64,000 bases of DNA from Ilumatobacteraceae bacterium. Lineage in GTDB: Bacteria > Actinomycetota > Acidimicrobiia > Acidimicrobiales > Ilumatobacteraceae. A program made the translations under genes and the position numbers. The DNA lies in assembly GCA_022425725.1 (NCBI GenBank), contig JAKMEY010000074.1, positions 1 through 64,000 on the forward strand, given 5' to 3'. Of this stretch, positions 41,914-48,311 are shown in pieces; position 1 is the stretch's first letter, and every line of letters starts with the position of its first letter. The notes under the pieces are model-generated. The model searched no databases and had not been told where the DNA came from. It saw nothing but the letters and a program-made list of their open reading frames with translations.

Positions 41914-43149
41914 CTACTCAGGGCGAGGTTCTTTTGGCAAGCCAAGCACACGTTCACCAACGATGTTTCGCTGAATTTGGCTTGTTCCTCCCCAGATCGT
42001 CTCCGACCGTGAGAAGAAGAATGACGACATCATTGCGCTGACCGGGTATCCGTCGCGTCGACGATCACGAAGCGCTCCTGGCCATGAGCCACTCTCTGGT
42101 CCCGAGTCGATCAGCATTGATTCGGCACCGAAAATATCGAGAGCGAGTTCCATCGCTGCTTTGTGCATTTCGGACCAAAACATTTTGTTCGTTGCGCCAA
42201 GGGCGATCGTGCCCATGTCTTTGCTTTTGTTGAGAGTGCTCGTGAGATTACGAAGTCCGTTGACGCGGAGAATCAGGACCTTCGTGTAGAACTGCATCAG
42301 CCGCTGACGGATCAATGGATCGTTGATGCGGCCATTTTCAGTTGCGACCTTGGCGAGGATTCGGTACTCCTCTTCGAACCGGCGGTAGCCGGTGGTTGCG
42401 GACTGACCTCGCTCAAATGCGAGCGTCGAGTTTGCGACCTTCCACCCGTTGTTAATTCCGCCGACAACGTTGTCGGCCGGGCAGCGAGCATCGGTGAAGA
42501 ACACCTCGCAAAATTCGGCCGTGCCGTCAGGCTGGGTGATTCCACGGACTTCGATGCCGGGCTGACGCATGGGCACGAGCAGATACGAGATTCCTGCATG
42601 CTTCGGCGACTCTGCGTCGGTGCGAGTGAGCAAGAAGCAGTAGTCAGCATGATGGCCCTGAGTGGTCCACACTTTCTGGCCGTTGATCACCCATTCATTG
42701 CCGTCGAGGACTGCTGTTGTCTTCAAGCTGGCAAGGTCTGACCCCGAGTTCGGCTCTGAGAAGCCCTGGCACCAACGAATTTCGCCCTTCAAAATTCCTG
42801 GAAGGAACTGCTGCTTCTGCTCTTCGGTTCCCCACTGCAACAGGGTCGGGCCGACGAGGGTGTCGCCGAAGAAATCGCCACGCATCGGGGCGCGAGCGCG
42901 GGCAAATTCTTCTGCCAAGACAACGCCTTGCATCGTGGTGAGGCCCTTACCGCCGTACTCGGTTGGCCATGTCGCGCAAATCCAGCCACCCTCGAAGAGC
43001 TTCTTCGGCCATTCGCGGTTGAACTCGGCTTTCTCCTCTTCGTTCATTACGAACCCCGGCTCAAACCACCCTTCAGGCAGGTTGTCTTCTAGCCATCCAC
43101 TAATCTCGACGCGAAAATTTTCGGCTTCTTGGGGGTATGTCAAATCCAT
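41914..43149 (-). CDS. Acyl-CoA dehydrogenase family protein
   Basis: This 411-residue flavoprotein has QGFSEPNSGSDLASLKT, INGQKVWTTQGHHAD (flavin-binding), and the C-terminal SRSETIWGGTSQIQRNIVGERVLGLP. Many long-chain, steroid side-chain and branched-chain acyl-CoA dehydrogenases of actinobacteria look like this. ATG 43149 gives the standard N-terminus MDLTYPQEAENFR. It is likely co-transcribed with the MFS carrier, which might move the same compound. Confidence 0.9.
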   Translation of the reverse strand: MDLTYPQEAENFRVEISGWLEDNLPEGWFEPGFVMNEEEKAEFNREWPKKLFEGGWICATWPTEYGGKGLTTMQGVVLAEEFARARAPMRGDFFGDTLVGPTLLQWGTEEQKQQFLPGILKGEIRWCQGFSEPNSGSDLASLKTTAVLDGNEWVINGQKVWTTQGHHADYCFLLTRTDAESPKHAGISYLLVPMRQPGIEVRGITQPDGTAEFCEVFFTDARCPADNVVGGINNGWKVANSTLAFERGQSATTGYRRFEEEYRILAKVATENGRINDPLIRQRLMQFYTKVLILRVNGLRNLTSTLNKSKDMGTIALGATNKMFWSEMHKAAMELALDIFGAESMLIDSGPESGSWPGALRDRRRDGYPVSAMMSSFFFSRSETIWGGTSQIQRNIVGERVLGLPKEPRPE

Positions 43150-43254
43150 AGCCGTATTCTGCCTTGCTTCTTCGCGGACGCGGCAACCGACCTCGAAACA
43201 CACTGTTCATTTTTCTCCAACATTCGCGTCACGATCATCGGTGAGCATAAGAAG

Positions 43255-43479
43255 ATGAGTTCTACAACCAGCGTGCTGTCACCCCAGGAACATGCCGTGT
43301 ATTCCGTCCTTGAAACCCACAAAGGACGTGTGGTGAGCCGCTACAACCTCATTCGTGAGGCGCAACTCACCGAACTCAGCGATCGTCGATGTGATGCCCT
43401 CATCTCTGCAATACGAGGGCATCTCGGATCTGACCGCATTGTGACTGTTCGCCGCCGCGGGTGGATGCTGACCGACTGA
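43255..43479 (+). CDS. Stand-alone OmpR/GlnR-type winged-helix DNA-binding domain
   Basis: This 74-residue protein consists almost only of a Trans_reg_C-type winged helix: LSPQEHAVYSVLETHKGRVV, SRYNLIREAQLTELSDRRCD (recognition-helix region), ISAIRGHLGSDRIVTV and a closing RRRGWMLTD. It lacks the receiver domain of OmpR/PhoB/GlnR proteins. The stop codon at 43477-43479 touches the first half-site of the GlnR-type operator upstream of amt. Its position suggests a role in nitrogen regulation. ATG 43255 is used because the longer frame upstream has no domain pattern. Confidence 0.7.
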   Translation: MSSTTSVLSPQEHAVYSVLETHKGRVVSRYNLIREAQLTELSDRRCDALISAIRGHLGSDRIVTVRRRGWMLTD

Positions 43480-43525
43480 ACAAACTGGTCACGAACTCGA
43501 AACAATTCGGCGACACTCGAGAAAA
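43477..43525. promoter_or_regulatory. GlnR-type operator array upstream of amt (first copy)
   Basis: Five pentamers repeat every 11 bp: TGAAC, GTCAC, GAAAC, GCGAC and GAAAA, each separated by six bases. The AC dinucleotides at 43480, 43491, 43502 and 43513 give AC-n9-AC three times over. The middle four units fit the Streptomyces GlnR consensus gTnAC-n6-GaAAC-n6-GtnAC-n6-GaAAC with only small departures. It lies 83-131 bp upstream of the amt GTG. Confidence 0.7.
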
Positions 43526-43607
43526 CTTCACCCTCTATCTTCTCTCTTGTCCCGGGCAGCGTGGCCGGTGGGACGCCCCCTATCCCATCACTACTGAGGA
43601 GGTTCAC

Positions 43608-44984
43608 GTGAAATCACGTGCTCTACGAATTATTTCCGGTCTCGGTGGAACAGCGGCGCTCGTCGCGTTGACACCGACCATCGGCTTCGCCGAAGAACTC
43701 ACCCCGGACGATGTCCAGATTGTGCTCAATAACCTTTGGGTCTTCATCGCTGGCATCCTCGTGTTCTTTATGCAGGCGGGCTTTGCGCTCGTCGAAGCGG
43801 GCCTTACCCGGGCAAAGAATGTGGTCAACATCTTTGCGAAGAACATGGCGGACGCGATCGTTGGCATCCTTGCCTTCTTTGCAACGGGTTACGCCTTCGC
43901 CTTTGGTTCAGGCGGTAGCAAGTGGCTTGGAAGTGGGAACTTTTTCCTCGGCGGCTATGACGACTACTCCGCTTTCGATGGCGGCTTGAGCCCGGCCACG
44001 ACATTCTTCTTCCAAGCTGTGTTTGCCGCAACCGCCGTCACCATCGCATCAGGAGCCATGGCGGAACGCACAAAGTTCTCCGCCTACCTGGTGTTCAGCC
44101 TCGTGATGTGCGCCTTCATCTACCCGGTTGTTGTCCACTGGACTTGGGGTGGCGGACTCATCGCCCAAATGTCAATCGGCGACGCGGTGTACTCCGACTT
44201 CGCCGGGTCAGGCATCGTTCACATGGTCGGAGGTATCGCTGCTCTCATGGGAGCGATGTTCCTTGGACCTCGAATTGGCAAATACTCACCAGACGGAACT
44301 CCCCGAGCCATCCCTGGCCACAACATCCCCTTCGCCATCCTTGGTGTCTTCATCCTCTGGTTGGGATGGTTCGGGTTTAACCCAGGGTCTGAGCTCGCGG
44401 CCGACCAGTACGTGATGTCGGTTGCGGTCAACACGATGCTCGCGGCCGCAGCAGGCGGATTGTTCTCGGCAGCCACCATTTGGCTCAAGGCCGGCAAGCC
44501 TGACGTCGCAATGGTTGGCAATGGCGCTCTCGCAGGACTCGTTGCGATCACCGCTCCGTGTGGAACGGTTGACCCGCTTCCAGCCGCTCTTATTGGAGGC
44601 ATCGGAGGCATCATCGTTGTCTACTCGGTGTATTTCTTCGACAAAGTGAAGATCGACGATCCGGTCGGTGCGATCTCGGTCCACGGTGTCTGCGGCATCT
44701 GGGGAACCCTCTCAATCGGGCTCTTTGCGAAGTATGACGACGCCTTCTTGGGACGCGAAGACGCGGGTCTGTTCTACGGCGGAGGATTTGATCAGCTCGG
44801 CATGCAGGCCGTCATGTTGATCATCATCATTGCGTGGGTCACGATCACCACCGCCATTCTCTTCACTGCCATCAAAGCCACCATCGGACTTCGAGTCTCA
44901 GCGGAGGAAGAAATCGAAGGCCTCGACGTTCTCGAGCACGGACTTGCTGGTTACAGCGGCGACTCAGTCTCCGTCGGCTCCTGA
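43608..44984 (+). CDS. amt: Ammonium transporter (first copy)
   Basis: This 458-residue Amt/Mep/Rh channel has a hydrophobic N-terminal leader (ALRIISGLGGTAALVALTPT) before the first core helix. Core motifs are AGFALVEAGLTRAKNVVNI, GSGIVHMVGGIAALMG (first pore His), and GAISVHGVCGIWGTLS (second pore His). An ideal AGGAGG site at 43597-43602 precedes GTG 43608, so the longer upstream frame is rejected. A GlnR-type operator lies about 100 bp upstream. The glnK gene starts 27 bp after the stop; its product plugs the channel when nitrogen is plentiful. Confidence 0.95.
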   Translation: MKSRALRIISGLGGTAALVALTPTIGFAEELTPDDVQIVLNNLWVFIAGILVFFMQAGFALVEAGLTRAKNVVNIFAKNMADAIVGILAFFATGYAFAFGSGGSKWLGSGNFFLGGYDDYSAFDGGLSPATTFFFQAVFAATAVTIASGAMAERTKFSAYLVFSLVMCAFIYPVVVHWTWGGGLIAQMSIGDAVYSDFAGSGIVHMVGGIAALMGAMFLGPRIGKYSPDGTPRAIPGHNIPFAILGVFILWLGWFGFNPGSELAADQYVMSVAVNTMLAAAAGGLFSAATIWLKAGKPDVAMVGNGALAGLVAITAPCGTVDPLPAALIGGIGGIIVVYSVYFFDKVKIDDPVGAISVHGVCGIWGTLSIGLFAKYDDAFLGREDAGLFYGGGFDQLGMQAVMLIIIIAWVTITTAILFTAIKATIGLRVSAEEEIEGLDVLEHGLAGYSGDSVSVGS

Positions 44985-45350
<366 letters not shown>

Positions 45351-45450: not shown

Positions 45451-45488
45451 AAGACCAAATCCGAACATTCTCGAAACATTCCAGAAAC
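45451..45488. promoter_or_regulatory. GlnR-type operator array upstream of second amt
   Basis: Four pentamers lie 11 bp apart: AAGAC, CGAAC, GAAAC and GAAAC. The AC dinucleotides start at 45454, 45465, 45476 and 45487, so AC-n9-AC holds three times. The array ends 24 bp before the ATG at 45512. As a second, independent copy of the pattern seen before the first amt, it suggests both modules answer to the same OmpR-type nitrogen regulator. Confidence 0.7.
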
Positions 45489-45511
45489 ATGTCGTGCCTA
45501 CGGTCCCCGGC

Positions 45512-47069
<1,558 letters not shown>

Positions 47070-47123: not shown

Positions 47124-48311
47124 ATGAGCACGACCGAGAAGCCCGCCGCTCCAAGCCGTTGGACCGCCCAGTGGAAAGAACTTAAAGCCGAAGTCATTGA
47201 CACCGGTCTCTGCACGGGGTGCTCGGGTTGCGTTGTCACCTGTCCGCATGACGTCATCGGTTACGAGCATGAAGAGGGCAAATATCTGCCATTCCATCTC
47301 GAATCTGAACTCGGGCCCGACAACTGTGTCCACGGTGAGAAGGGTTGCACCACCTGCACGCGAGCGTGCCCCCGCTTCGGCGCATGGGAGACTTCCGCTG
47401 ACATGCACCTGTTTGGTCGCGTGCGTGAGCCAGATGAGATGGCGGGTATCTGGCAGCAATTGCTGCTCACCCGTGCCAGTGACGACATGGTGCACAAAAT
47501 GGGTCAAGACGGCGGCTTCGTATCAGCGATGCTGATCTGGCTTCGCGAACATGATTACATCGATGCCGCTCTGGTCTCTGGTGTCGAAGACGATGATGCA
47601 TGGAAAGCCAAACCTGTCGTCGTGTCGACCCGCGAAGAAATTCTTGCGACCGCCGGAAGTCGCTACACCTACTGTGCGAACCCGCTTGCATTGCCAGAGG
47701 CGAAAGCCGCTGGCCACGAGCGTCTCGCCCTCGTGGGAATGGGTTGCCAAACATCGGCTCCCCCGACGATGTGGGACAGGAAGGCCGGCAAAGTGTCGAA
47801 GCCCTTCCAGTTCAACATTGGTCTTCTCTGCTCGAAAACCTTCGACGACGCGATCTTCAGCGAACTCTTCGAAGCCAAATACGGCCTCAAGAAGCAAGAC
47901 ATGGTGAAGATGAATATCAAAGGCGCCTTCCAGATCTGGATGAAGGACGGCTCGTATCACGAGATCGATCTCAAGGAATGCCACGGCTGGACTCGCCAGG
48001 GCTGTAACCACTGCCCCGACTTTGCGGCGGAGCACGCAGATATTTCCACCGGTGGTATCGGCGAAGACAATGACTGGACGCTGACGATTGTGCGCACCGA
48101 CCTCGGAGTTGAGGTGATCGAGCGGATGATCGCCGATGGCGCAATCGAGGCTCGCCCGGCTCAAGAAGACGAAAAAGCGATGAAATTGCTCCGGATGCTG
48201 TCGATTGTCAGCCGGCGTCGCTGGCCCAAAGATGCTGATCCGGCTCCTGCAGTTGGCGTTCCACCGCCAAAGAAGAAAGCCGCAGCCCCGGCCCCAACTC
48301 CTGCGAGTTGA
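47124..48311 (+). CDS. F420 hydrogenase/dehydrogenase beta subunit (FrhB-like)
   Basis: This 395-residue protein has an N-terminal ferredoxin-like part with Cys30, Cys33, Cys36 and Cys40 (LCTGCSGCVVTCP) and a second group at Cys68, Cys75, Cys78 and Cys82, enough for two [4Fe-4S] clusters. The FrhB flavin domain follows: GQDGGFVSAMLIWL, GSRYTYCANPLAL, LVGMGCQTSA, and NIGLLCSKTFDD. It should reduce or oxidise F420 with ferredoxin-level electrons. A Lys/Pro/Ala tail ends the protein. It lies just after glnK; no hydrogenase subunits are nearby. Confidence 0.88.
   Translation: MSTTEKPAAPSRWTAQWKELKAEVIDTGLCTGCSGCVVTCPHDVIGYEHEEGKYLPFHLESELGPDNCVHGEKGCTTCTRACPRFGAWETSADMHLFGRVREPDEMAGIWQQLLLTRASDDMVHKMGQDGGFVSAMLIWLREHDYIDAALVSGVEDDDAWKAKPVVVSTREEILATAGSRYTYCANPLALPEAKAAGHERLALVGMGCQTSAPPTMWDRKAGKVSKPFQFNIGLLCSKTFDDAIFSELFEAKYGLKKQDMVKMNIKGAFQIWMKDGSYHEIDLKECHGWTRQGCNHCPDFAAEHADISTGGIGEDNDWTLTIVRTDLGVEVIERMIADGAIEARPAQEDEKAMKLLRMLSIVSRRRWPKDADPAPAVGVPPPKKKAAAPAPTPAS

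Follow-up and report, generated by a model that had tools for sequence, protein, structure and literature searches.

In the window, that is, the whole 64,000-nucleotide stretch of DNA analysed here, a small gene upstream of the ammonium transporter gene amt1 encodes a receiver-less OmpR-type winged-helix protein. Computational analysis established that the gene is conserved, that its product has a winged-helix fold, that its neighbourhood is constant, and that its promoter has the geometry of the amt1 promoter. Judging from this promoter, which had gone unseen in the original prediction together with its operator array, the small gene most likely belongs to the GlnR regulon. Its product may be a GlnR-induced, receiver-less domain with a local tuning effect on the amt/glnK cluster, exerted at these arrays, a reading to which we give not quite an even chance.

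The small gene, its product and its neighbours

The features of the locus are listed in Table 1. PF00486 (Trans_reg_C), the sole Pfam domain found in the small protein, spans residues 7–72 of 74 (31.8 bits against a cut-off of 26.2; 30.7 bits in the genome-wide search), so that the domain takes up the whole protein and leaves no place for a receiver; the Pfam search detected neither an N-terminal receiver domain of the OmpR/PhoB kind nor the atypical oligomerising receiver of GlnR. The AlphaFold2 model (mean pLDDT 91.9, with an alignment of 37 relatives) contains helices at residues 10–21, 29–35, and 43–57 and a two-strand wing at 62–65 and 69–72. Foldseek matched it to OmpR-family domains with a probability of 1.00, the nearest solved structures being the DNA-binding domains of NsrR, CovR, GlnR, YycF, and PhoB; for the GlnR domains 8hig_B and 8hml_B, TMq was 0.81 and rmsd 1.6. 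The open reading frame, the PF00486 match, and the model agree with the original prediction of a 74-residue protein made up almost only of an OmpR-type DNA-binding domain, and the stop codon does lie next to the amt array, as had been claimed, with the array starting 7 nt past it.

OmpR-type domains touch DNA through alpha-3 and the wing. Four arginines in these parts (R44, R54, R66, and R68) are invariant in alignment A1, which was built without G003 and G046, two of the 27 genomes with matches. The product very probably binds DNA. The protein is 74 aa long in the window's clade, mostly 89–100 aa elsewhere, and 74–134 aa over 43 loci, the variation being due to differing N- and C-terminal extensions; many of the longer homologues open with a short S/A-x-PAP-rich segment. 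Some relatives have long open frames ahead of the gene, of up to 563 codons (G008), which raised the possibility that it is fused to a larger protein. This was rejected, as the promoter and the in-frame, predicted leaderless start place the beginning of the gene near the domain.

Table 1. Features of the small-gene and amt/glnK region in the window
Feature	Position	Strand	Remarks
Acyl-CoA dehydrogenase (ACAD) gene	41914..43149	-	Pfam; divergent; most constant direct neighbour
Own operator array, 4 x 11 bp	43194..43237	+	Units CGAAACACACT GTTCATTTTTC TCCAACATTCG CGTCACGATCA
Own -10 element, GAGCAT	43243..43248	+	Exactly 5 nt past array; ATG 6 nt on, predicted leaderless
Small gene	43255..43479	+	ATG 43255, TGA 43477-43479; 74 aa; receiver-less OmpR-type winged-helix protein
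amt1 array, 4 x 11 bp, GlnR-type	43487..43530	+	Units GGTCACGAACT CGAAACAATTC GGCGACACTCG AGAAAACTTCA
amt1 -10 element, TATCTT	43536..43541	+	5 nt past array
GC-rich block in amt1 leader	43549..43574	+	Conserved; core GGCAGCGTGGCC
amt1, ammonium transporter	43608..44984	+	PF00909, 1.1e-127; start GTG 43608, not 43461
glnK1, P-II protein	45012..45350	+	PF00543
amt2 array, three clear 11-bp units	45461..45493	+	5 nt, then -10 TACGGT 45499-45504
amt2, ammonium transporter	45512..46723	+	PF00909, 6.8e-122
glnK2, P-II protein	46731..47069	+	PF00543

Matches to the small protein at E ≤ 1e-3 were found in 27 of 61 genomes, the window's own included. The weakest, in G046 (L054; 1.6e-4, 32% identity), was dropped as being to all appearance a generic wHTH relative. 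A family profile reached at least 93 bits in 15 of 296 sampled genomes of the class, with the next match at 39 bits; 14 of the 15 belong to the window's family and one (G044) to another family of the order. Scanning named genomes with the patterns TVRRRGWM and LS[DEA]RRCD[SA]L[IV] yielded 37 loci titled Acidimicrobiaceae, Acidimicrobiales, Ilumatobacter or Ilumatobacteraceae, Actinobacteria, Actinomycetota, or plain bacterium, and one of them (L114) titled Acidobacteria, perhaps through a label error. Because retrieval was by pattern, the invariant residues of alignment A3 are partly selected, whereas A1 is free of such bias. The counts below refer to a set of 49 loci (the window, L084–L120, and L043–L053, with same-contig repeats removed), which are related and therefore count as non-independent events (the close pairs L085/L086 and L100/L102 share 96–97% DNA identity); the gene-bearing genomes G103, G202, G277, G312, and G318 lie outside this set.

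The dN/dS ratio was 0.02–0.13 between the window and its close relatives (five of six pairs computable); among all 21 pairs of seven copies, one was not computable, one near-identical pair gave 0.33, and the others gave 0.02–0.16. On this comparative evidence, the small gene is a real gene under purifying selection, and it is well conserved in its host group of mostly uncultured actinobacteria. The original prediction proposed looking for conservation beside amt and named a non-conserved gene or a broken frame as grounds for giving it up. The gene is kept in 15 of the 16 genomes of the window's genus and at the 49 loci, and neither defect is found in nearly all relatives, the exceptions being one broken copy (G198) and one absence within the genus (G013).

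In 44 of the 49 loci, a divergent ACAD gene is found no more than 500 bp away, as counted with a query that began at the first in-frame GTG (43203) and was 18 residues longer than the ACAD of Table 1. It is 2.6 kb (L046) and 3.8 kb (L095) from the small gene in two other loci, and none was seen within 3.8 kb (L103) or 6 kb (L053) upstream. Of the 49 loci, 46 have an amt gene no more than 6.5 kb away and 43 a linked glnK; in 23, amt immediately follows the small gene in the same orientation. No amt was seen in three loci, two of which (L093 and L105) stop short; the third, L051, has 5.7 kb of downstream sequence that contains none. A second lineage has the order ACAD, small gene, antiporter, glnK, amt, amt; the antiporter gene, of the sodium/hydrogen exchanger type (L104–L120 and L043:6252–8927), follows the small gene after approximately 40–100 bp, and the sequences suggest that the two may share one transcript. 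The antiporter of L043 joins a sodium/hydrogen exchanger domain to C-terminal ACT domains. In L045, L047, and L048, glnD is located between the small gene and glnK/amt (the L047 copy was confirmed by Pfam). Downstream of glnK2 in the window lies FrhB, an F420 hydrogenase beta-subunit-like gene (47124–48311) that accompanies the cluster in many loci (77–99% identity).

Operator arrays, promoter geometry and GlnR

The array upstream of the small gene follows one unit pattern in many genera: GTTCACA-n4-GTTCACA, then an (A)ACA unit, and then a GAAA(C/A)-like unit. We scored it with a 40-bp motif trained on 28 glutamine synthetase promoters, to which the small gene contributed nothing (29 loci were tried; L219 had no start motif, and L233 and the G005 match were left out). 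At 43 of 49 loci, the region upstream of the small gene scored higher with this motif than the 99th percentile of Markov shuffles, versus 4 of 49 for the reverse-strand control; the six negative regions were those of the window, L088, L113, L114, L120, and L043. The window's own array, which is in register with the arrays of its relatives, just misses the threshold (−14.5 bits against a null 99% value of −13.2, with 1 of 40 shuffles equally good). An array expression likewise found 43 of 49 loci, missing L113, L114, L120, L046, L043, and L053; the two sets do not fully coincide, and the counts are not independent of each other, as the expressions were composed after the arrays had been seen. 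The −10 and start-codon offsets are independent of the expressions.

With respect to these offsets, NANNNT stands exactly 5 nt past unit 4 in 40 of the 43 arrays and in at most four at any other offset; the three arrays without it read TTGCAT, TTGGAT, and TTGCAT. All 43 arrays are followed by an in-frame ATG or GTG at +17 (28 arrays), +18 (12), or +19 nt (3), which leaves no space for a ribosome-binding site. The small gene is accordingly predicted to have a leaderless promoter with amt1 geometry, which makes it a predicted GlnR target itself. Target genes of the GlnR regulon are recognised by tandem 11-bp sites at the promoter, and 43 of the 49 loci have these, the array of the window being marginal; according to PMC10704036, GlnR boxes have an 11-bp period. 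The four-unit array and the distance to the −10 element are shared by the small-gene and amt1 promoters, and a common activator is the best explanation for this.

On the amt side, TANNNN was found at offset 5 in 20 of 21 arrays. The ATG of amt2 lies 7 nt past its −10 element, where ORF callers would pick GTG 45494, and amt2 is probably leaderless too. A loose GlnR-type pair pattern occurred in the 64-kb window only at the amt1 and amt2 promoters; since 30 shuffles gave a mean of 1.1 and a maximum of 5 occurrences, only the placement is telling, and the count is not significant. The glutamine-synthetase-trained motif scored above threshold on the amt side in 12 of 49 loci, with the window below it (−14.8 vs −13.1). 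In the second lineage, with the antiporter, no amt-side array adjoins the small gene. Similar amt arrays were seen by eye in relatives without the small gene, so this gene is not needed for amt control.

The GC-rich block in the amt1 leader has the core GGCA.CG..GCC in 16 aligned loci, whose invariance is partly built in because the loci were chosen by an expression containing this core; the core also occurs in G013 and G031, which have no small gene. The flanks of the block look complementary within single sequences. Alifold of the amt1 leader alignment returned three invariant pairs and no covariation, for which reason no RNA element is claimed, and an Rfam search of the block gave no match of weight.

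Glutamine synthetase promoters (L182, L195, and L204–L232) carry a strongly conserved array of four 11-bp units with the motif TTCACACaGCGTTCACAaTcGgGaaACGGnngnGAAACgG. The gene was identified by PF00120 and PF03951 ('glnII' is a label chosen here) and in many genomes, including the window's, it shares contig and strand with glnR and precedes it by a few kb. GTTCAC repeats also precede PstS-like genes (PF12849; L169, L172, L175, L184, and L190), where the second unit is GTTCACC, forming a PHO-box-like class apart from the nitrogen arrays. The same repeat stands ahead of another solute-binding protein gene in L191, and in L170 and L194, of the same genus, GTTCAC-n5-GTTCAC precedes a gene of the Mrp antiporter/NADH-quinone oxidoreductase kind (assigned by Pfam for L170).

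The window's own genome contains seven further PF00486 matches. A full-length glnR, which the original prediction proposed looking for elsewhere in the genome, is one of these seven, L022, whose product matched the PDB entries 8hih (8e-38), 8hig (7e-34), and 8hml (3e-31) best; the latter two carry GlnR titles. GlnR (at least 225 bits) was detected in 43 of 47 genomes (27 of 31 with the small gene and 16 of 16 without it), being missing from G002, G003, G008, and, save for a 45-residue fragment, G277. This distribution suits GlnR for the role of shared activator, and on sequence grounds it is highly probable that GlnR reads the arrays. The earlier idea that the small protein might replace GlnR does not agree with the presence of GlnR in the own genome and in 43 of 47 genomes, nor with the persistence of the glutamine synthetase and amt arrays where the small gene is absent.

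Competition of the small protein with GlnR, also suggested earlier, is possible. The recognition helices of the two proteins differ strongly. GlnR reads RTVDVH(V/I)RRLRAK in all 30 GlnR loci examined, whereas alpha-3 of the small protein is RRCDALISAIRGHLG, which has few residues in common with it and is unlike it at most exposed positions. The same base contacts are thus unlikely, and a shared operator is not implied. Residues that we take to be those touching bases in PhoB and GlnR are replaced in the small protein family. The helix comparison proposed earlier showed that the GlnR recognition helix is absent; the central observation, a receiver-less OmpR-type domain beside the GlnR-type operators of amt, was upheld and extends to a conserved gene.

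Candidate roles of the small protein

Under nitrogen shortage, full-length GlnR, encoded elsewhere, would occupy the array of four 11-bp units ahead of the −10 element and so switch on leaderless transcription of the small gene, in the same way as at amt1. In the account of Shi et al. 2023 given by PMC10704036, four GlnR domains line up head to tail on the DNA, and the receivers form a tetramer. Having no receiver, the small protein cannot supply such a tetramer and would contribute nothing to the one reaching RNA polymerase. It might bind DNA at or beside the flanking arrays and so tune both the amt/glnK cluster and its own promoter, and a negative-feedback brake would be the simplest form of this tuning. 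Being conserved and apparently switched on by GlnR, the small gene probably serves to tune the nitrogen response from within. We propose the arrays as its site of action in that the small protein would be made from them and is encoded beside them, and a bare domain would disturb a receiver-dependent activator; such action at the arrays remains tentative, somewhat short of an even bet. A fuller version, in which the bare domain occupies at least one site of the array, disrupts the tetramer of receivers, and caps ammonium transporter expression, with the array and the gene forming a cassette between interchangeable arrays that can be lost by recombination, as G013 suggests, is rather unlikely as a whole.

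G013, of the same genus, has a single array between ACAD and amt, again 5 nt from a TATGTT; by eye, units 1 and 2 resemble the small-gene array and the last two the amt array. The sequence suggests that this array may be what recombination between two arrays would leave. Also by eye, G198 keeps a promoter-like array with a broken remnant of the small gene, G030 has two arrays between ACAD and amt and no recognisable small gene, and amt arrays persist in G013, G027, G030, G031, G291, and G140. The small gene can thus be dispensed with, and the arrays persist independently of it.

The same observations are compatible with a GlnR-induced factor that has different sites of its own, at the ACAD promoter or at distant genes, and that would relay the nitrogen signal with no feedback on the GlnR arrays. 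A recognition helix unlike that of GlnR and an amt array that is similar without the small gene both favour this reading, as does ACAD, the most constant neighbour (44/49) even where the antiporter precedes amt. However, no second conserved motif was seen by eye in the intergenic DNA, and ACAD is distant in L046 and L095 and was not seen upstream in L103 and L053; we regard such a factor as a real possibility with perhaps a third of the weight. The upstream array could instead be a PHO box for a PhoP-type regulator, with the small gene relaying phosphate starvation to nitrogen genes, given that units 1 and 2 are often GTTCACA direct repeats, that PstS-like genes of the same bacterial family carry GTTCAC repeats, and that PhoP and GlnR compete at the glnA, glnII, and amtB promoters of Streptomyces, according to PMC10704036. 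This is disfavoured and improbable, as the second repeat is GTTCACC at five PstS-like promoters but mostly GTTCACA at the small gene, where the repeats are followed by (A)ACA and GAAA(C/A)-like units as at the glutamine synthetase gene, and the geometry equals that of amt1.

Two further readings give up DNA binding or function altogether. Small size and the constant linkage to glnK (43/49) would fit a domain that acts through a protein partner, such as the GlnR DNA-binding domain or P-II, and no longer by binding DNA, but the invariance of the four arginines in alpha-3 and the wing makes this quite improbable. A functionless, decaying leftover of a response regulator would account for the absence in G013, the broken copy in G198, and the wide range of protein lengths; it is scarcely credible in view of the promoter layout and in-frame start common to all 43 arrays and of the dN/dS values of the window pairs, as purifying selection already disfavours decay.

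Relation to known regulators

If the small protein acts on GlnR arrays, it would be a simple case, occurring in nature, of an effector domain that exerts control on its own, and it would open a way into nitrogen regulation in a poorly cultured group of actinobacteria. A full-text literature search, with most subscription journals outside its coverage, returned no description of a receiver-less OmpR-type protein fixed in a global nutrient regulon, and the same search gave no paper joining GlnR with Acidimicrobiia or Ilumatobacter with an ammonium transporter.

The small protein resembles GlnR in its OmpR-type winged helix, in its linkage to amt, glnK, and 11-bp tandem GlnR boxes, and in the superposition of its model on 8hig and 8hml; unlike GlnR, it has neither a receiver nor the GlnR recognition helix, and it coexists with a true GlnR. 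NnaR, which combines a HemD-like domain with an OmpR-type wHTH and regulates nitrate/nitrite assimilation beside GlnR, as described in PMC6277429, is likewise a second nitrogen-linked wHTH. Among NCBIfam profiles, PRK07239 matched the small protein best, through its C-terminal domain (7.4e-7), but with 28.4 bits the match stayed below the cut-off of 273. Membership of NnaR was rejected because the HemD-like N-terminal domain is absent, and the small gene, in contrast to NnaR, sits at amt. GlnRII of Streptomyces, said in PMC10704036 to be of the OmpR type and to share some GlnR targets, is also a second OmpR-type protein of the nitrogen network, but it has, on the same account, a near-GlnR recognition helix and an N-terminal part, neither of which the small protein possesses. 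The small protein therefore fails a defining feature of each of GlnR, GlnRII, and NnaR, and with the OmpR/PhoB response regulators it shares the effector-domain fold while differing from them in having no receiver.
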